Origin: a virus | Length of the DNA: 64,000 bases | Direction: 5' to 3' (one strand) | Virus record (IMG/VR): IMGVR_UViG_3300012269_000002 | Span: 18,407 to 82,406 of that record | Shown here: in pieces, positions 2,807 to 62,489 of the stretch | How the letters are laid out: every line of letters starts with the position of its first letter | Numbering within the stretch: position 1 is the first letter of the stretch | Translations under genes and position numbers: made by a program | The notes under the pieces: generated by a model | Seen by the model: only the letters and a program-made list of their open reading frames with translations | Databases searched by the model: none | Told to the model about the DNA's origin: nothing

Positions 2807-3868
2807 ATGAGTGATAAAAAACCAGATGTTTTTCAAACAAAAAACACAGATAATATGGAATTTCCAAGTCAAATTTCTAGTGCAGAGGAACTTGCGGCTA
2901 ATAAAATGAAAAGAAGAACCGAGGAACAAATTAAACTTAGGTCTGAAAATTTAGCTAAAAGTGAGGAAATAGCTAGGGAAACCGAAAAAACAAGACTAAT
3001 ACAAATGGAAGAAAAAAATGCTCACCAATCAAATCAAAATTCTAGTAATCAACAAATGATAGAGCCAACGGTTAATTACCCACAAGTTACTAAAGCACCA
3101 GAACTTAGTGATATTGAAATAATGAGCCAACCCCAAATGAATCAAGCATTTGATGTAATCCCATTACCGTCCGAGGGTAAATTATACCCATCTAAAAAGA
3201 AAAGTATCAAGGTTGCGTATTTAACGACCGCTGATGAAAATATTCTTACGTCACCTAACTTAGTTGATAGTGGGCAATTTTTGGAAATACTATTAAATAG
3301 AAAGATTTTAGAACCAGAACTAAGATATAGTGATTTACACACTGGTGATAGAAATGCTATTATGGTTTGGCTTAGGGCCACTGGTTATGGTACTGATTAC
3401 CAAATACAAATGTTGGATAAAAATAATGTACCATTTGAAACATCCTTTGATTTAAGTACTCTTAAAACAATAAAATTAGGTGCTGAACCAGATTTGGAAG
3501 GTTTATTTTATTTTAAAATGCCATTAAGTGGTGATGATATAAAATTTAAACTATTAAGCGTTGGTGATGTTGATGCAATAGGTGAATTATTAGAATTGGA
3601 TAAGGTTAATGGTGTTACTATTAATACTGAACCTACCCACATTTTAAACTTTCATATAATTGAGGTAAACGGTGATAGAAGTAGAGATTTTATTAAGGAA
3701 TATTCAAATAATATTAGAACATTAGATGCTCAGAAACTTAGGAAATTTATTAGTAGTATCGAAAGCGGTATAGATTTAAATGTCGATATCAAGACTCCTG
3801 GGGGTGGGTCTATAACTACATTTCTTCCAATTAACCCAAGCTTTTTTTGGCCTAACTCGGAATTATAA
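2807..3868 (+). CDS. T4 gp26/gp51-like baseplate hub protein (first frame)
   Basis: 353 residues. Residues 1-115 are charged and low-complexity, probably coiled or disordered. From ~120 the sequence reads FDVIPLPSEGKLYPSKKK, matching the 'LPSkGklY' opening of T4-type hub assembly proteins, and continues with a compact alpha/beta region to NPSFFWPNSEL. In T4-like relatives the chain continues with a short helical domain ending in an 'MP..ER..' motif. Here that domain lies in the +1 frame immediately downstream (see 3842-3867 and 3939-4124). The gene opens the hub operon, as genes 26 and 51 do in T4. Confidence 0.65.
   Translation: MSDKKPDVFQTKNTDNMEFPSQISSAEELAANKMKRRTEEQIKLRSENLAKSEEIARETEKTRLIQMEEKNAHQSNQNSSNQQMIEPTVNYPQVTKAPELSDIEIMSQPQMNQAFDVIPLPSEGKLYPSKKKSIKVAYLTTADENILTSPNLVDSGQFLEILLNRKILEPELRYSDLHTGDRNAIMVWLRATGYGTDYQIQMLDKNNVPFETSFDLSTLKTIKLGAEPDLEGLFYFKMPLSGDDIKFKLLSVGDVDAIGELLELDKVNGVTINTEPTHILNFHIIEVNGDRSRDFIKEYSNNIRTLDAQKLRKFISSIESGIDLNVDIKTPGGGSITTFLPINPSFFWPNSEL
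3842..3867 (+). other. Probable programmed +1 frameshift site
   Basis: Seven T (3842-3848) lie near the end of the hub gene, read as TTT TTT TGG. A +1 slip enters a frame that is open from 3816 and encodes a continuous helical domain (LLEEIYACTKHIGFSYQDT) running into the reading frame at 3939. The upstream part of that domain has no ATG, GTG or TTG start. A shift nearer the zero-frame stop (3866-3868) is also possible. A sequencing error or real mutation in the T7 run would give the same picture. Confidence 0.5.
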
Positions 3869-3938
3869 AACGAGTTTATTAGAAGAGATTTATGCTTGTA
3901 CCAAACACATAGGGTTTTCATACCAAGATACGCTTAGT

Positions 3939-4124
3939 ATGCCTACTTACGAAAGGAGGTCCTATTTATCATTATTGATAAATGAAAATACTAGAAAATC
4001 TGAAAGGATGGAACAAGAAATGGAAAATACTACCAATAAGAACGCAAAGGGTAGTAGGACCAGTAGGGTTAGTGGTGAAACACTTAAAGCAAGATTAAAA
4101 AACGGAGAAATACCTAACAATTAA
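3939..4124 (+). CDS. C-terminal domain of the gp26/51-like hub protein (+1 frame) or small separate protein
   Basis: The ATG-initiated part is 61 residues, starting MPTYERRSYLSLLINE. The same frame is open and clearly protein-like upstream to about 3816. The combined sequence (LLEEIYACTKHIGFSYQDT then MPTYERRSYLSLL) matches, from memory, the C-terminal end of T4 gp51-type hub proteins, where 'IFTFYQINHTL...IMSMIPAERGFVLKL' occupies this place. It is therefore best read as the last domain of the preceding gene, reached by +1 frameshifting. It could also be made alone from the internal ATG. The tail of the protein is rich in E, N, K and R. Confidence 0.6.
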   Translation: MPTYERRSYLSLLINENTRKSERMEQEMENTTNKNAKGSRTSRVSGETLKARLKNGEIPNN

Positions 4125-4143
4125 ATAAGTTAGGTATTTTTTT
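4108..4143 (+). terminator. Rho-independent terminator
   Basis: AAATACCTAAC (4108-4118) pairs with GTTAGGTATTT (4129-4139), followed by T's to 4143. The left arm overlaps the end of the preceding frame and the stop codon lies in the loop. Confidence 0.8.
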
Positions 4144-4154
4144 CGTTTATTAGA

Positions 4155-4161
4155 TATTTAT
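4155..4161 (+). promoter_or_regulatory. TATTTAT motif (putative phage promoter)
   Basis: GATATTTATAGTAAA, 19 bases before the ATG at 4181 and just after a terminator, as expected for a promoter that restarts transcription. Confidence 0.45.
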
Positions 4162-4180
4162 AGTAAATACCATAATTTAG

Positions 4181-5530
4181 ATGAAAAAACTAATTATTAA
4201 CGAGTCTCAACTAAGGCTTATAAAGAATTTATTACTTGAGAATAAAACTCAGGATTTAATTAAAAAAGTTAACATCGGTGATATTATTTTAATTTACAGG
4301 GAAAATGTTGAAAAACATTTAATCTTTGAAGTTATAAATAATTTACCCGATGGTGTTTTTATGAGACCAGCTGATACAAATTCTAAGGATAGAGATAAAT
4401 TGATTAGGTTCAATATCATGGATTTGGATGGTGATACATTGAATTTAAAATGGATTGATAGCCCAGAAGGTGAAAAGGTTGGTAAACCTAGTTGGAAGAA
4501 CGTAACCGTAAAAAATATAACTGGTTATAGTTTACTTGATTCGGATAAAAATCCTAAGGGTTTTGTTAAGCTTAGTGATGAGGAAGAGGAAGAGGTTAAT
4601 ACCGATAATTCAGTAGAGGATGATGATAATATTGAGGATAATCAAAGTGAAAGCGAATATTTAAAAACACTAATATCTAGTTTGGACGAAATTGAGGTCG
4701 GTAGTAAACACATTTTGACCTTAAGTGATAATAGTAAAATACATTTTGAGGTTATTGATAAAGTACCTAATAAAATTGGTATTAAAATATTAAAAAATGT
4801 TGGTAAAGAAGCTAAACGATATGATAAATTAATTGATAATATCCTAGAACTTGAACCATCATCAAAAACAGTTAAATTAGTTAATGGTAAAAAAATATTT
4901 AACATATCATTTTTAAGTTACCCAGATGATAGGGATATTAATGAAGTTGATGAGGATGATGTAGATGTTGGAGAACCAGTAGTAATCAGTAACATAATTA
5001 ATTTTGAAAAATCTTATATAGATGCGAGTACGGATGTTAGTTCTTATGCAACCATTACTGATAAAGAAGCCATGAGTATGATTTTAAAAAACCCTAAGAT
5101 TAGAGGTGCGTTTATGAAGCAACCAACATTATGGGATATGATTACGAATAGTGAACCAAAAGGTCTTATTAAGGCTAAATCTATTCTTGATAAAGTTTAT
5201 AATGGTGACAATGAATCTAATAAACAGGTTACCGATGTTTTAAAAATTCCCAATAAAATAAGTTTTAAACTTTTAGGTGATTCATTTAGTGAAGAAATTG
5301 ATGGAGTTACTTATAAATTAAATAATGAAGTTAAATATATTGCAAAAAATAGGGCCAAGAGAGATGGTGGAGTATTTTCAACTATTTTAACTAAAGGTGG
5401 TATGGAACTATTTATTTATAGAATTAAAAATAAAGATAACGAAGAATATTTAGCCAGAATAATTATAAATTCGGATAGTGGTAAGGACTTTAAAGAAAAT
5501 AGGGTTATAAAAATATTTAAACAACAATAA
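4181..5530 (+). CDS. Unknown acidic protein with an internal repeat, in the tail operon
   Basis: 449 residues; I do not recognise the family. Two regions look related: residues ~28-70 (GDIILIYRENVEKHLIFEVI) and ~170-215 (GSKHILTLSDNSKIHFEVID), suggesting a duplicated small beta domain. They are separated by an acidic linker rich in D, E and N (~130-160). The last 60 residues read like a beta-rich domain (TKGGMELFIYRIKNKDNEEY). It lies between the hub gene and the tape measure gene with a 3-base gap to the latter, so it is probably a virion or tail assembly protein. Confidence 0.6.
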   Translation: MKKLIINESQLRLIKNLLLENKTQDLIKKVNIGDIILIYRENVEKHLIFEVINNLPDGVFMRPADTNSKDRDKLIRFNIMDLDGDTLNLKWIDSPEGEKVGKPSWKNVTVKNITGYSLLDSDKNPKGFVKLSDEEEEEVNTDNSVEDDDNIEDNQSESEYLKTLISSLDEIEVGSKHILTLSDNSKIHFEVIDKVPNKIGIKILKNVGKEAKRYDKLIDNILELEPSSKTVKLVNGKKIFNISFLSYPDDRDINEVDEDDVDVGEPVVISNIINFEKSYIDASTDVSSYATITDKEAMSMILKNPKIRGAFMKQPTLWDMITNSEPKGLIKAKSILDKVYNGDNESNKQVTDVLKIPNKISFKLLGDSFSEEIDGVTYKLNNEVKYIAKNRAKRDGGVFSTILTKGGMELFIYRIKNKDNEEYLARIIINSDSGKDFKENRVIKIFKQQ

Positions 5531-5533
5531 TAT

Positions 5534-8083
5534 ATGGCTTCAAATGATGATTTTTTAAAAAATCTAACAGCTTCGGCTAAAATACAAAAACAGTTAACTT
5601 CAAGTGTTGGTGAATATGCCAAGGCTATAGCTACTATTGGTGAAATTCAAGAAAATATTAAAATTGCGTTAGAGGGTCAAAAAGCTATTGAGGCAGATTT
5701 ATTATTATTAAGACAAGAGGAACAGGACTTAATCAATAAAATGGCTGGTGATAGTGCTAACCTAACCGAAGCTGAACGTAGAAGATTAGCAAATTTAGCG
5801 ATAATAATAAGAAATCAACAAAATATTTCTGACGAACTAGTAAAACAAACTACCTCATTAAATAGACAGAATGATGAGTATATTCAGATAATTAAAAACG
5901 TTAGTAAGGTTAATTTAGGGGTGAGTACCGTTCTTAAAAGTTTAACTAAAGTACCTGGCTTAATTAAAAAAGGTTTTGGTGCTCTAGATGATACTGGTAT
6001 TTTTAAGGTTGATAAAGAAATAAAGTTAACGTCTAGAAGTCTTAATATTTCAAAAGCTAATTCAGATGCATTTGGTCTTAGTTTAAATAAGGCTGCTAAG
6101 TCAACAAGTATGATAGGTGTTCAAACAGAAGACTTATCTAAAATGCAAAAATCATATTCAGAAGAAATAGGTAGGTCCGTAGTACTAAGTGAAGAAGGTC
6201 TAGTAGCTATGTCTAGAATGGCACAAGGTACTAACCTAGGTACCGAGGGTGCTGCTGCTATGGCAGCTGAAATGGATAAATTCAACTTATCGGTTGAGGC
6301 TTCTGCCGATTACGTTGAGGAAACGGTTAAGCTAGCCGCTAAAATGGGTGTAAATTCAGATAAAGCAATTAAAAATTTACAAACAAATCTTAAATTAGCT
6401 CAAAAATTTAATTTTAAAGGTGGAGTTGCTGGAATTACCATGATGGCAAATGAGGCCGCTAGGCTTCGTTTAGACATGGATGGGATATCTGGGCTAGCTG
6501 ATAAGGTGTTTAGGCCAGAGGGTGCCGTTGAAATGGCTGCACAGCTACAAGTTATGGGTGGTGAGTTTGCAAAACTAGGTGACCCTTTCACATTAATGTT
6601 TAAAGCTAGAAATGATTTTGCTGGTTTTGCTAAGGATATTTCAAAGGCTACGGTTGAATTTGTTGACTTTAATGATGAAACTGGTGAGACAATCCTTAAG
6701 GGTGGTCTAGCGGCTGATAGAATGAGGGAGATTTCCAAGATTACGGGTATCGCCACTGATAAATTGGTTGAGATGGCTGGCGCACAAAAAAGGTTGGAGA
6801 AATTCGATTCGATTATCCCAAGTGTAATTTCAGATAAGGAAGATAGAGAAATGATTGCATCTTTAGCTACAATGAAAGATGGTAAGGCTGAAATAGTACT
6901 TTCTGGTGGTGAAAAATTTAATTTAAAGGATATTACCGATAGTACGCTAAAGTATATAAAGGCGAATGATGAAGGTTTAAAAGAAAGGGCTGAAGGTTCT
7001 AGAAGTTTTGATGAGAACATTACTGATTTTAAAAATACAATGAAATCTACATTTTTACCATTAGCTCAAACATTGGCCAAGGATATTGGCCCCAAGATAC
7101 AGGGAATGGTTGATTATTTAAGGGATAATGATTGGTTTGGTAAGATAGAGACATTTATGAAAGGTGTTGGAAGTGCCGTAACGACATTTGGTGATATATT
7201 TAGTCCAAAAGGATTATTAATTGCTGGAATAGCTACACTTATAGCTCAACCAGCTTTATGGGTTATACGTGGACTAAAATTAGCTAAAGGATTTATGAGC
7301 GGTGTTCGTGGCATGGGTGGTATTGGTGATGGAAAAACTGGAAGTAGAACTGGTTCTTCTGGTAGTGGAATGTTTAATACTAGTAGAACTGGTGCTGGTA
7401 TGTCTAAGTCGGCTAAGATGGGGATGAATTTTAAAAGTGCCAGTAAAGGTATTGGTAGTAGGCTTGGTGGACTTACCGCTGCTGGATTTTCTGGTTATGA
7501 TGAGTGGTCTGAAAATAGTGAAAACGGTATGGGAGATGGTGAAAATGCCACTAGAACTGCCGCTAGAGCTGGTGGTGCTGGTTTAGGTGCCTGGGGTGGT
7601 GCCGCTGCTGGTGCTGCTATCGGTAGTGTTGTTCCAGTAATTGGTACAATTATTGGTGGAATTATAGGTGGTATAGCTGGTGGTGCTTTAGGTGATTATG
7701 TTGGTGATAAAGCTGGTGATATAGGTTTCGGTAGTAGTGGTAAACCAATAAAAAGTGTTGATGATGGTATCATAAGTTTTAACCCTAACGATAAATTTAT
7801 GTCGGTTGGTAGTGATGCCATGATTGCTGGAACTAACGTAAACGGAAATAAAAAACTAGCTGAAACGATATCAACTGGTGGTTCTGGTGGCTCAAGTGAG
7901 GTTAAACATAAATTTGATGATTTAAATATTAATATTTCATTGAATAGTGACACTGCATGGTTAAATAGAATCGGTTCGGATATCGCTAACGATAGGACTT
8001 TTGTTAGGGAATTAACTATTAAAATACAAGAAGAAATTAGAATGGCAATAGGTGGTGGAAAACTAAATCCTAACCCAATATAA
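5534..8083 (+). CDS. Probable tape measure protein
   Basis: 849 residues. Residues ~1-130 are heptad-rich coiled coil (many Q, E, L and I). The middle is helical and Ala/Lys/Met-rich. Residues ~555-590 (GLLIAGIATLIAQPALWVI) and ~680-715 (IGTIIGGIIGGIAGGALGDYV) are hydrophobic or Gly-zipper segments typical of tape measures that insert into the host membrane. Length, coiled coil, membrane-like segments and position in the hub operon (T4 gene 29 position) all fit. A Gly/Ser-rich low-complexity stretch lies around residues 595-640. No enzymatic motif was seen. Confidence 0.7.
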   Translation: MASNDDFLKNLTASAKIQKQLTSSVGEYAKAIATIGEIQENIKIALEGQKAIEADLLLLRQEEQDLINKMAGDSANLTEAERRRLANLAIIIRNQQNISDELVKQTTSLNRQNDEYIQIIKNVSKVNLGVSTVLKSLTKVPGLIKKGFGALDDTGIFKVDKEIKLTSRSLNISKANSDAFGLSLNKAAKSTSMIGVQTEDLSKMQKSYSEEIGRSVVLSEEGLVAMSRMAQGTNLGTEGAAAMAAEMDKFNLSVEASADYVEETVKLAAKMGVNSDKAIKNLQTNLKLAQKFNFKGGVAGITMMANEAARLRLDMDGISGLADKVFRPEGAVEMAAQLQVMGGEFAKLGDPFTLMFKARNDFAGFAKDISKATVEFVDFNDETGETILKGGLAADRMREISKITGIATDKLVEMAGAQKRLEKFDSIIPSVISDKEDREMIASLATMKDGKAEIVLSGGEKFNLKDITDSTLKYIKANDEGLKERAEGSRSFDENITDFKNTMKSTFLPLAQTLAKDIGPKIQGMVDYLRDNDWFGKIETFMKGVGSAVTTFGDIFSPKGLLIAGIATLIAQPALWVIRGLKLAKGFMSGVRGMGGIGDGKTGSRTGSSGSGMFNTSRTGAGMSKSAKMGMNFKSASKGIGSRLGGLTAAGFSGYDEWSENSENGMGDGENATRTAARAGGAGLGAWGGAAAGAAIGSVVPVIGTIIGGIIGGIAGGALGDYVGDKAGDIGFGSSGKPIKSVDDGIISFNPNDKFMSVGSDAMIAGTNVNGNKKLAETISTGGSGGSSEVKHKFDDLNINISLNSDTAWLNRIGSDIANDRTFVRELTIKIQEEIRMAIGGGKLNPNPI

Positions 8084-58755: not shown

Positions 58756-59406
58756 ATGGAAGATAATAAAAATAACCTAATATTAGGCCTGGATGTTTCA
58801 ACAAAAACGATTGGAATTGCTTTGTTCGAGGATTTAGGTAAGAGTGGTAAATTAAAATTACTTCACCATGTTACACCTAACGTAAAACCAAAACCAGAGA
58901 GTAATATTCAAATGTTATTTGAAAAGGCTAGAATATTCGATGAAGAATTTTTAAATAAATATAGTAATGTAGGTATAACTAAAGTTATAATCGAAGAGCC
59001 TCTTTTACGTTCAAATAACGTAAACACCGTAGCAACCTTACTTAGATTCAATGGTATGATTGCCAGGGCAATATATGATACACTTGATATTGTTCCAGAA
59101 TTTATTTCATCTTACGATGCTAGAAAATTCGGTATACCCGAATTAATGGGCATTAGAAAATTTAATAAAAAGGGTGAACCATATAGTGAAAAAGAAATCT
59201 CCAAGAAAGAACCAGTATTATTTGGCGGTTATGATTGGGAAGTCGATAAAAAAATGGTCGTTTGGGAAAAAGTTGCGGATTTAGAACCACAAATCACTTG
59301 GTTACATACAAGAACAAAAACCTTAAAAAAGGAAAATTTTGACATGAGTGATGCTTATATCACAGTTATAGGCTATATGAATAAAATTGGTGTGTGGGTT
59401 AAATAA
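58756..59406 (+). CDS. RuvC-like Holliday junction resolvase
   Basis: 216 residues. Acidic catalytic residues of the RuvC/RNase H fold appear in order: LILGLDVSTKTIGIALFED (first Asp), KVIIEEPLL (Glu) and FDMSDAYITVIGY (C-terminal Asp pair). It is longer than bacterial RuvC through an insert of about 50 residues near 130-185. It resolves branched recombination and replication DNA before packaging, the role of endonuclease VII in T4. A diverged copy of its last 21 codons occurs at 60259-60324. Confidence 0.85.
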   Translation: MEDNKNNLILGLDVSTKTIGIALFEDLGKSGKLKLLHHVTPNVKPKPESNIQMLFEKARIFDEEFLNKYSNVGITKVIIEEPLLRSNNVNTVATLLRFNGMIARAIYDTLDIVPEFISSYDARKFGIPELMGIRKFNKKGEPYSEKEISKKEPVLFGGYDWEVDKKMVVWEKVADLEPQITWLHTRTKTLKKENFDMSDAYITVIGYMNKIGVWVK

Positions 59407-59463
59407 TAACACACATATATAAATCTTTTCTCACCTAAATCGGTATTTTACCCACTTTCTATA

Positions 59464-59470
59464 TATTTAT
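59464..59470 (+). promoter_or_regulatory. TATTTAT motif (putative phage promoter)
   Basis: ATATATTTATAAATAAAG, 10 bases before the GIY-YIG gene at 59481. Confidence 0.45.
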
Positions 59471-59480
59471 AAATAAAGTT

Positions 59481-60266
59481 ATGGGGGATAAAATAGTTAG
59501 AAAGTTATCTAAAACACCATTATGTGGTGTGTATCAGATAGAAAACACAATTAATAATAAAAAATATATTGGCCAATCAATTGATATAGAGAGGCGATGG
59601 AATCAACATCGTTATGGTAAAGGTAGTATTATATTAAGAAATGCTATAAATAAACACGGTATTAATAATTTTGAGTTTACAATTCTAGAGTCTATACCAA
59701 TTGGTAATAGAGATAAAATGATTGATGAACTAACCTTAATTGAAGAAAAATGGTTATCTAAGGAGAAACCTTTTCTAAGAGAAAATGGTTATAATATAAA
59801 TAAAAGCGCAAAAGTGAATATACCAATTGAAAGACCTGAAGGTTATGGTGAAATGATTAGTAAAATAAAAATTGATAATAATCATTGTGGTAAAGCTACA
59901 GTTCAATACGATTTAGAAGGTAATTTAATTAAAGTGTGGAAATCCGCTGCACAAATAGAAAGAGTATTAGGGTTTAAGGCTGAAAATATTTCAGCATGTT
60001 GTTTAAGAAAAAACAAAAGTTCTAAAGGGTTTATCTGGAGGTTTAAATGGGATTTGGTATCCAAATATGATATTATAAATTTAAAAATTAAAAAAGGTGC
60101 ATCTAAAACAATAGAACAGAAAACGTTAGATGGTAAAGTTATTAGAGTTTTTGATTCACTAACCGCAGCTTCTAATTTCACCAACATACATTATACATAT
60201 ATTAGTAAAGTTTGTACTAAAAAACAAAAAACGGCTGGCGGTTTTAAATGGTCCTACCATGAGTGA
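59481..60266 (+). CDS. GIY-YIG homing endonuclease downstream of the resolvase gene
   Basis: 261 residues. The GIY-YIG domain spans ~10-100 (CGVYQIENTINNKKYIGQSI, then ERRWNQHRYGKG; Glu in LTLIEEKWLS). Two NUMOD1-type DNA-binding units follow: ATVQYDLEGNLIKVWKSAAQ to GFIWRF, and KTLDGKVIRVFDSLTAASNF to GGFKWSY. It ends exactly where a diverged copy of the resolvase 3' end begins, overlapping it by 8 bases. The likely target is therefore the catalytic-motif region near the end of the resolvase gene. Confidence 0.9.
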   Translation: MGDKIVRKLSKTPLCGVYQIENTINNKKYIGQSIDIERRWNQHRYGKGSIILRNAINKHGINNFEFTILESIPIGNRDKMIDELTLIEEKWLSKEKPFLRENGYNINKSAKVNIPIERPEGYGEMISKIKIDNNHCGKATVQYDLEGNLIKVWKSAAQIERVLGFKAENISACCLRKNKSSKGFIWRFKWDLVSKYDIINLKIKKGASKTIEQKTLDGKVIRVFDSLTAASNFTNIHYTYISKVCTKKQKTAGGFKWSYHE

Positions 60267-60324
60267 TAGTTACTTATGTGTTATTGGTTATATACAAAAA
60301 AATGGTTATTGGCCTATAAACTAA
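60259..60324 (+). pseudogene. Diverged duplicate of the resolvase 3' end (21 codons)
   Basis: Reads MSDSYLCVIGYIQKNGYWPI plus Asn and stop. The intact gene ends MSDAYITVIGYMNKIGVWVK. The match covers the last catalytic Asp motif and stops at the endonuclease gene. The many differences imply an origin in a related phage, not recent copying. Confidence 0.8.
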
Positions 60325-60330
60325 GTTCCT

Positions 60331-60366
60331 ATTGCAAATATGGATTAATTTTCATATATTTGCAAT
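60331..60366 (+). promoter_or_regulatory. Palindromic Bacteroidetes-type promoter before a primase 5' remnant
   Basis: ATTG (60331-60334) and TATATTTG (60355-60362) have spacing 20. Both boxes lie in an 11-bp perfect inverted repeat, ATTGCAAATAT with ATATTTGCAAT (60356-60366), so a repressor could cover the whole promoter. The ATG of the remnant follows at 60367. Confidence 0.65.
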
Positions 60367-60441
60367 ATGGACAATATTTTAATTAATTTATTTAGGGGAT
60401 TTTTAGGTGAATGCCACAGTCACAATGATGACAGTGGTCAA
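60367..60441 (+). pseudogene. Diverged duplicate of the primase 5' end (25 codons)
   Basis: Reads MDNILINLFRGFLGECHSHN then DDSGQ. The intact primase at 61527 starts MDNIILNIFRSFLGEPHEHN then EESGQ. Similarity stops at SGQ, three bases before the 3' end of a minus-strand GIY-YIG gene, which has evidently been inserted there. Confidence 0.85.
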
Positions 60442-60444
60442 TAT

Positions 60445-61293
60445 TCATTTATTAACCACATTCCAAATTGTTGATTTACTAATATTAAATAAATCAGCTA
60501 ATTTTCTGGTTGAATAATAACCAGTTTTATATAGATTTATAATTTCTTTTTTAATTGTATCAGTTAATTTAGTTTTTTCATTTGAAGAAAAATACACCCA
60601 CTTAAACCCAATACATATTTTAGTTCTACCATTACAAACTGAACTAATTCTAGATGGGTCGATATTATAATTATTAGCTGCATCAGTTAAACTATCCCAT
60701 AGTTTAATTGTATTACCATCAGTATCTAACTGGTAAACTTTTCTTTTATTTAACGCTGGTTTACCTTTTTTTATGTTGGATAATTTATTTTTAGTTTCAC
60801 TTGAATGACCAACCCCAGTTTTAGTTTTTATAAGTTTAATTATAGTTTCACTATAATGTTTTTCACCAGTATGTGAAATGGACATCATTTTTTTAGTTTC
60901 ATCAGAATGTTTATTACCTAAGTTATATTTATTACCCTTATGAATTTTAGATAATTTCATTTTTGTTTCGTCTGAATGCTTAAAACCTAACATGTTATTA
61001 GCAAAGCCACATATATTATATGTTTTATCTTTATCAAATGGTTTCATAACATCTAAATGATATTGTTCACGTATTAATAGGTCGGTAACATTTTCAATAA
61101 TTTCGATTATATTAAACTCAAAATTATTTTCACCATATTTGTTCCAAGATTTTTGCAAATAATCATTATCATGAATACCCTTTCTAAGTGTACGTTTATG
61201 GTCATACCATCTTTTAGTTATATTAATTGAACTACCAATATAAAATTTACCGTTTTTTATATTTATTATCCTATATATACCTATTTTATTCAT
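60445..61293 (-). CDS. GIY-YIG homing endonuclease with NUMOD3/NUMOD1 and C-terminal helix-turn-helix
   Basis: 282 residues. GIY-YIG at ~4-90 (IGIYRIINIKNGKFYIGSSI, then KRWYDHKRTL; Glu in LLIREQYHL). NUMOD3-type repeats 'HSDETK.K.S' occur at ~105-170, a NUMOD1 unit at ~183-233 (KVYQLDTDGNTIKLWDSLTD to FKWVY), and a final helix-turn-helix (YYSTRKLADLFNISKSTIWN). Its start codon overlaps the stop of the small ribbon-helix-helix gene upstream on the same strand. It points against the neighbouring genes and interrupts the primase 5' remnant. Confidence 0.9.
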   Translation of the reverse strand: MNKIGIYRIINIKNGKFYIGSSINITKRWYDHKRTLRKGIHDNDYLQKSWNKYGENNFEFNIIEIIENVTDLLIREQYHLDVMKPFDKDKTYNICGFANNMLGFKHSDETKMKLSKIHKGNKYNLGNKHSDETKKMMSISHTGEKHYSETIIKLIKTKTGVGHSSETKNKLSNIKKGKPALNKRKVYQLDTDGNTIKLWDSLTDAANNYNIDPSRISSVCNGRTKICIGFKWVYFSSNEKTKLTDTIKKEIINLYKTGYYSTRKLADLFNISKSTIWNVVNK

Positions 61294-61438
61294 TTTCTTT
61301 TATATGTGTTTCTAACAACTCCCCAATTAATTTAGATTTATTATTTGTGATTTTATTTAACTGGTCATTTAAGTCTTTATCCAAAGTTATACTAACTTTT
61401 ATTTTCTTATCACTTTCATTTAATTTTGGTCTTCCCAT
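61286..61438 (-). CDS. Ribbon-helix-helix protein coupled to the GIY-YIG gene, 50 aa
   Basis: Starts MGRPKLNESDKKIKVSITLD and continues KDLNDQLNKITNNKSKLIGE to KENE. The beta strand (KIKVSITL) followed by two helices is the ribbon-helix-helix DNA-binding fold used by small repressors such as Arc and CopG. It overlaps the endonuclease start by 8 bases (ATGAATAA), so the two are translated together. A TATTTAT motif precedes it on the same strand. It probably represses its own promoter and limits endonuclease expression, or acts as a DNA-binding partner. Confidence 0.75.
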   Translation of the reverse strand: MGRPKLNESDKKIKVSITLDKDLNDQLNKITNNKSKLIGELLETHIKENE

Positions 61439-61453
61439 ATTATATCTTTATTA

Positions 61454-61460
61454 ATAAATA
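61454..61460 (-). promoter_or_regulatory. TATTTAT motif on the minus strand
   Basis: On the minus strand GATATTTATTAATAAAG lies 15 bases before the ribbon-helix-helix start at 61438. The motif follows gene direction, which argues against chance. Confidence 0.5.
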
Positions 61461-61513
61461 TCTATAAAAATAATAAAAATAGCTTTTTTATAGCATTTTT
61501 AAAAAAAAAGTTA

Positions 61514-61521
61514 TATATTTG
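61514..61521 (+). promoter_or_regulatory. Bacteroidetes-type -7 box before primase
   Basis: TATATTTG ends five bases before the ATG at 61527, as at the other host-type promoters. No NTTG box is found 20 bases upstream, so the -33 part has probably been replaced by inserted sequence. Confidence 0.5.
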
Positions 61522-61526
61522 TAAAC

Positions 61527-62489
61527 ATGGATAATATCATACTTAACATATTTAGAAGTTTTTTAGGGGAGCCACATGAACACAATGAAGAAAGTGGTCA
61601 AACAAGTTGGGATTGTCCAGCTTGTGCTGAGGATAAGGGACTTCCTATGGGTCAAGGTGATGGTAGACATAAATTAGCGATTAATTATAAACGTGGTATA
61701 TTTAAGTGTTGGGTTTGTAACTACCAAAACAACATGTACGGTAAAATACCTAAATTAATCAAACGATACGGTAATAAAAAAATACTAAAGGATTATTTAT
61801 TACTTAAACCAGAGAATGATTATCAACCGAACCTAAATGATATACAAGCAACGGTTGTACATTTACCCGATGGCTTTAAAAAACTTAGTGAGTGCACTGG
61901 TAGTGAGTATAAATATTCACACGCATATTATTATCTAATAGATAGAGGATTTACTGATGAAATAATTAAAGAATTTAATATAGGTTTTACTACTTATGGT
62001 AAATTTAGGAACAGGGTCATAATCCCATCATACGATGAGGTAGGTGATTTAAATTATTTCGTTGGTAGGGCTTGGGACGATTTCAATAAACCAAAATATA
62101 ATAACCCAGATGCTGAAAAACAAGCGATTATCTTTAATGAGGATAAGATTAATTGGGATTCTACAATATATTTGGTAGAAGGAGCCTTTGACCATATAGT
62201 AATTCCAAACTCAATACCTATACTGGGTAAAAATTTAAGTGTTAGAGTTAAACAAATGATATTAACCAAGTCCAGAGCGGATATTGTAATATTATTAGAT
62301 GAGGATGCCTACGATGATGCTATTAGAATTTATAAAGAACTTAATGTTGGTGATTTATATAATAAGATTAAGTTATGTACTCCACCGTATAAAGAAGACC
62401 CAGCTTCTATTTTTAAAAATGAAGGTAGGTCTGGTATTATAAAATTATTAAAAACTTCTAAAAGGGTTCCAGAAATTGAGTTATATTAA
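61527..62489 (+). CDS. 61: gp61-type DNA primase
   Basis: 320 residues (T4 gp61 342). The N-terminal zinc ribbon has SWDCPACAEDK and GIFKCWVCNYQN (~residues 29-72). The TOPRIM fold has TIYLVEGAFDHIVI (Glu) and ADIVILLDEDAYDDA (Asp-x-Asp). It makes RNA primers with the gp41-type helicase encoded at 24-28 kb. A start at 61527 follows a -7 box closely. Its stop overlaps that of the convergent gene by 4 bases, without a terminator. Confidence 0.92.
   Translation: MDNIILNIFRSFLGEPHEHNEESGQTSWDCPACAEDKGLPMGQGDGRHKLAINYKRGIFKCWVCNYQNNMYGKIPKLIKRYGNKKILKDYLLLKPENDYQPNLNDIQATVVHLPDGFKKLSECTGSEYKYSHAYYYLIDRGFTDEIIKEFNIGFTTYGKFRNRVIIPSYDEVGDLNYFVGRAWDDFNKPKYNNPDAEKQAIIFNEDKINWDSTIYLVEGAFDHIVIPNSIPILGKNLSVRVKQMILTKSRADIVILLDEDAYDDAIRIYKELNVGDLYNKIKLCTPPYKEDPASIFKNEGRSGIIKLLKTSKRVPEIELY

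Follow-up and report, generated by a model that had tools for sequence, protein, structure and literature searches.

The window, a stretch of 64,000 nucleotides, comes from a virus record of 161,293 bp and encodes an intact RuvC-like Holliday junction resolvase of 216 aa (58756..59406, plus strand; PHROG 159, E 3e-5) and an intact DnaG-type primase of 320 aa (61527..62489, plus strand; phrog_47, E 1.5e-40; PF08275, E 2e-9). The resolvase has about 380 relatives in viral contigs, and their alignment gives D13, E80/E81, D196 and D199 as invariant residues. We take the spacing of D196 and D199 to resemble that of the last catalytic pair of RuvC; a search of solved structures returned a marginal match at best. 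Two GIY-YIG genes lie between the resolvase and the primase. Gene 1 (59481..60266, plus strand) encodes 261 aa with a NUMOD1 domain (PF01541, E 5e-12; PF07453, E 6e-10). Gene 2 (60445..61293, minus strand) encodes 282 aa with NUMOD3, NUMOD1 and a C-terminal helix-turn-helix (PF01541, E 3e-11; PF07460, E 2e-14). Hence, both have the GIY-YIG catalytic domain and NUMOD-type DNA-binding modules, with the main domains above curated cut-offs. Gene 2 is preceded by the 50-aa MGRPKL ORF (61286..61438, minus strand), which belongs to the same cassette and has weak similarity to a CcdA-type antitoxin (PF07362, E 0.007) and to a phage repressor family (phrog_876, E 2e-4). A promoter-like TATATTTG element stands upstream of the intact primase (61514..61521, plus strand).

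The two nuclease genes enclose a remnant of 183 nt (60259..60441, plus strand), made of a resolvase 3' end from M197 to the stop (MSDSYLCVIGYIQKNGYWPIN followed by the stop codon; 60259..60324), an intergenic spacer of 42 nt (60325..60366) and a primase 5' end, codons 1-25 (MDNILINLFRGFLGECHSHNDDSGQ; 60367..60441), all on the plus strand. It begins exactly at resolvase codon M197, extends to about primase codon 25-28, and its resolvase DNA supplies the stop codon of GIY-YIG gene 1. The spacer contains a promoter-like site on the plus strand, TTG (60332) followed after 20 nt by TATATTTG (60355-60362). This spacing presumably fits the Bacteroidota promoter consensus, which would suggest a Bacteroidota host. 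The site (60332-60362) is an orphan, well formed, and aims into the 3' end of gene 2 in antisense.

A contiguous copy of the junction

The initial annotation described the fragment as one contiguous resolvase-primase junction (resolvase 3' end, promoter, primase 5' end), and our analysis confirms this. The remnant resolvase tail matches the intact one at 11/20 aa and 40/60 nt, and the primase head at 17/25 aa and 59/73 nt. In six-frame protein comparisons the two parts score 64 and 103, respectively. The maxima among 2000 dinucleotide shuffles are 40 and 50, so that none of the shuffles reaches either score, and the best scores elsewhere in the window are 37 and 33. The similarity to the intact ends is not due to chance. 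The fragment also has the length of a native junction: from resolvase codon 197 to primase codon 25 it spans 183 nt, against a median of 186 nt in empty junctions (53 junctions in the comparison), and its spacer of 42 nt compares with an empty-junction median of 48 nt. Two further IMG/VR contigs carry the array without a single base difference over more than 8.3 kb, which makes a one-off assembly error unlikely.

Nuclease genes and displaced ends in related phages

Searches with the resolvase, the primase and the nucleases retrieved 66 distinct junctions, of which 42 were empty (18-136 nt between resolvase and primase) and 24 occupied (gap above 300 nt); later searches raised the total to 110. 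The occupants in the first set of 66 include homologues of gene 1 and gene 2, an HNH-type gene (L051) and a LAGLIDADG-like gene (L073), along with unrelated genes, e.g. a glycosyltransferase (L070). Gene-1 homologues with more than 50% identity sit at the same junction in other phages, and gene-2 homologues occupy the same site in L038, L044, L088 and L195. Profile searches detected resolvase or primase remnants at 10 of the 13 nuclease-occupied junctions and at none of the 11 otherwise occupied (Fisher exact test, about 1.5e-4, to be read as a guide only since the loci are partly dependent, L048 and L049 being near-identical). Remnants thus sit beside nuclease genes only, in unrelated phages and at the same codons. 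L028 and L195 retain the nuclease without a remnant. In L028, the gene-1 homologue (3518-4567) precedes an unrelated short reading frame, possibly a later stage of decay. The LAGLIDADG-like endonuclease gene of L073 (1699-2640) likewise has no detected remnant; counted with the HNH-type gene of L051, it would bring the nuclease families at this one junction to at least three.

The breakpoints recur. Four gene-1-type remnants (window, L029, L033, L093) begin at the ATG of a DM(S/T)D motif; those of L048 and L049 begin at its second Asp codon. In four phages, gene-2-type remnants, with equivalents of the window's in L044, L088 and L038, break off at primase codons 23-28, immediately ahead of the conserved FDCPxC codons. 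If cut sites are placed from these breakpoints, both nucleases seem to target codons in which the host gene has little room for change. Gene-1 homologues in the opposite orientation are found at the same resolvase codon in L048 (3594-4373), L049 (5735-6514) and L093 (4001-4786), and in all three the resolvase remnant remains on the far side of the nuclease despite the inversion. A resolvase tail remnant, MADSYCCVLGYMNKTGKWKI, also lies in L289 (about 900-1240) beside an inverted gene-1 homologue, which is followed by a thioredoxin-like gene and not by a primase. The window phage has another GIY-YIG gene directly upstream of a ClpP-like protease gene (L290 4754-5422; G000:C1 about 107253-107921) and a further one near G000:C1:124996.

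Pairs of phages with an occupied and an empty junction bear on which copy is native. The occupied L044 and the empty L045 are about 99% identical around the junction. They share 163 nt without a mismatch, from the resolvase end through the spacer and the primase head to base 6763; beyond this base L044 has the nuclease, followed by a primase in which the first 75 nt are only 67% identical to L045 and the body 99%. The pair L088/L040 has one mismatch in the spacer and none in the head remnant, while the intact primase head matches at 49/75 positions (65%) and the body at 862/863. From these alignments, the stranded fragment in L044 and L088 is the phage's own end, and the intact gene wears the end of the newcomer. 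The remnant has gone from L195, where, relative to L198, the intact head is diverged (75%) and the body is 89% identical. The target gene combines a native body with an element-borne end in L044, L088, L195 and L051, native and replacement ends differing at 25-35% of bases. In L044 and L088, compared with their empty sisters, the displaced native end is on the far side of the nuclease, and the geometry of the window is the same. An insertion without a nuclease, containing the glycosyltransferase (L070 compared with L062), left both ends unchanged, which indicates that end replacement goes with nucleases.

These pairs (L044/L045, L088/L040) establish a fixed site with occupied and empty alleles for the gene-2 homologues; for gene 1 the comparison is with more distant empty relatives. 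We found no occupied/empty pair above 90% identity in the gene-1 family: the best empty sisters of the carriers L029 and L033 are at about 81%, and L028, at 86%, is itself occupied. The only clear pair for replacement of the resolvase end involves the HNH-type gene, which in L051 lies between a new-tailed resolvase and the remnant. This remnant is a mosaic, the first 119 nt being closest to the L197/L044 lineage and the remainder matching the close sister L025, so that the part past the crossover is native. The simplest reading of the mosaic would be that a donor's old remnant recombined with the native end of the recipient, as has been proposed for the WHO elements of yeast (PMC7282813). The initial annotation had suggested that remnants may serve as homology arms, a role that this one relative supports.

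The extent of the mobile unit emerges from the comparison of L088 with L038. Similarity is higher in the nuclease (88%), in the stretch leading up to the primase (88%) and in the intact head of that gene (89%) than in the flanks, i.e. the native remnant region (72%) and the primase body (68%). The MGRPKL ORF lies between nuclease and primase in all five gene-2 cassettes, that of the window included. This block and the shared ORF imply a unit formed by the nuclease, the regulator-like ORF, the promoter and the primase 5' end. Pairwise identities gave no clear signal that gene 1 travels with the adjacent resolvase tail, these tails being very short.

Origin of the junction in the window

We consider it likely (probability of roughly 0.8) that a double insertion of two homing elements, each replacing the end of a gene, produced the junction of the window; the same anatomy at both of its ends makes the double event the best reading. 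Element 1 would comprise the resolvase 3' end and GIY-YIG gene 1, with its point of entry in the resolvase at the DM(S/T)D codons. For element 2, which would comprise GIY-YIG gene 2, the small regulator-like ORF, the promoter and the primase 5' end, the point of entry would be in the primase at about codons 23-28, immediately ahead of the CPxC motif. With a co-infecting carrier phage as the template for repair, the cut gene would be joined to the carrier's diverged end and so remain whole, and the native end would come to lie beyond the nuclease gene. The window nucleases are predicted to cut at these sites, and the new ends should resist further cutting. Two such events from opposite sides, in either order, would strand the native junction as an island of 183 nt, which could act as a homology arm in the next round of homing. 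The presence of gene-1 homologues in both orientations at one codon counts against this model, which does not explain it.

Under the double-insertion model, codons 197 to stop of the intact resolvase (59344..59406, plus strand) would be the replacement 3' end brought by element 1, because the remnant begins at the same codon and because the end is replaced in L051/L025. Codons 1-25 of the intact primase (61527..61601, plus strand) would be the replacement 5' end from element 2, because the intact heads are foreign in L044/L045, L088/L040 and L195/L198. The promoter-like element upstream of the intact primase is probably element-borne too, because in L088/L038 the equivalent stretch travels together with the nuclease (88%). 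Similarity to element or native junctions is weak and inconsistent in the 90 nt that precede the intact primase.

The remnant would thus be the native copy of the window phage, and the intact ends foreign. The initial annotation had it the other way round: an incoming junction from a related phage was left as scraps, and the resident resolvase and primase kept their own ends. Its view that homing nucleases explain the junction was borne out, and the comparison with related phages that it proposed upheld both the contiguous junction and the role of homing, but not its choice of the foreign copy, which is probably wrong. None of the informative pairs shows resident genes left whole with incoming ends as scraps; L044/L045 and L088/L040 show the remnant to be native. 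An incoming junction would be in keeping with the divergence of the remnant from the resident genes, yet it requires an insertion into a short spacer that makes no use of homology at either gene, and the boundaries of the remnants fall at recurring codons inside the genes. We regard it as unlikely for the window. In the window itself, however, the primase heads of L005, L006 and L007, which are its nearest relatives by primase body, resemble the intact head more than the remnant. It is here that the case for the window is weakest: the similarity could be explained by drift of the unselected remnant, but also by the reverse polarity. L034 slightly favours the remnant head, so that these short ends, compared at 60-80% identity, pull both ways. 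The empty relatives recovered for the window phage reach at most about 79% resolvase identity, and searches for a close sister through the L034 primase, with a degenerate DNA pattern for the resolvase tail of the remnant, in bacterial and archaeal genomes and among named phages returned none.

Two further explanations fare less well. The native island might be kept for a function, either as the source of an antisense RNA across gene 2 or as a decoy site for the nucleases. This would be compatible with the double insertion, and the promoter-like site is indeed intact and the primase-head frame still open. We find it rather improbable, as L028 and L195 keep their nuclease without a remnant and a recent insertion or a role as homology arm suffices for retention; the decoy idea, also raised in the initial annotation, is not needed. 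Simple tandem duplication of the resident junction, or chimeric assembly, followed by divergence and without homing, would account for the clear homology and identical order of remnant and intact ends, but is very improbable given the identical array in two other contigs, the recurrence of remnants beside nuclease genes only, in unrelated phages and at the same codons, and the pairs in which the diverged copy is the end of the intact gene with the breakpoint inside it.

Known counterparts and implications

The replacement of gene ends is already known from yeast and from fungal mitochondria. Each time a WHO element homes in Torulaspora or Lachancea yeasts, FBA1 receives a new 3' end, and a fragment remains of the former one (Coughlan 2020, PMC7282813). 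The likeness is close: the end of the target gene is replaced, the gene is kept whole, the old end is displaced as a homology arm, and repeated invasions stack up (PMC7282813). However, WHO proteins are intein-derived, have zinc fingers and replace the 3' end only (PMC7282813), whereas here GIY-YIG nucleases (and one of HNH type) act in phages, the 5' end and promoter are replaced as well, and the attack comes from opposite sides on two adjacent genes. Membership of the WHO family is ruled out by the type of nuclease, and the likeness is one of working. In fungal mitochondria, the accessible part of one account (PMC3630166) describes mORFs at atp6, atp9, cox2 and nad3, and at Allomyces atp6, in which an endonuclease ORF brings a foreign C-terminal coding end and makes a hybrid gene. 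Downstream of it remains the native end, which matches that of close relatives; the mORF of atp9 is a GIY-YIG gene. As far as that part goes, these elements differ in being mitochondrial, mostly LAGLIDADG and confined to 3' ends, with no paired 3'/5' arrangement (PMC3630166).

Among phages, the seg and mob genes of T4 include free-standing, intergenic GIY-YIG genes that adjoin the gene they cut, with co-conversion of flanks and marker exclusion; the available sections of the source (PMC2988022) describe replacement or gene splitting but no displaced native end that is retained. Phage homing endonuclease islands also place nuclease genes at exchange boundaries between related phages, and their flanking nucleases are proposed to home together. 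They differ as islands of cargo genes, and partial copies of gene ends are not described in the portion of the text at hand (PMC10448857). We found no report of gene-end replacement in phages in the literature searched, which is weak evidence as subscription journals were mostly outside its coverage. What is new here is the phage setting, the GIY-YIG nucleases, the exchange of a 5' end together with the promoter, and the two opposed elements that isolate a whole native junction.

By bringing a spare end, a free-standing homing nuclease can target a conserved and important gene that nonetheless survives. When a 5' end and promoter are replaced, the element can also alter the expression of the host gene. 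With occupied/empty pairs at hand, the mechanism can be tested directly. The pairs also carry a warning: partial gene copies beside phage nucleases may be native DNA and not the newcomer. In a broader reading, for which the odds seem about even, the junction would be a standing arena for end-replacing homing elements of several nuclease families, which attack both genes from both sides and swap ends and promoter. If so, the old host ends left by successive invasions would be the arms for the next, and the ends of two replication genes would evolve by swapping and not by simple descent.
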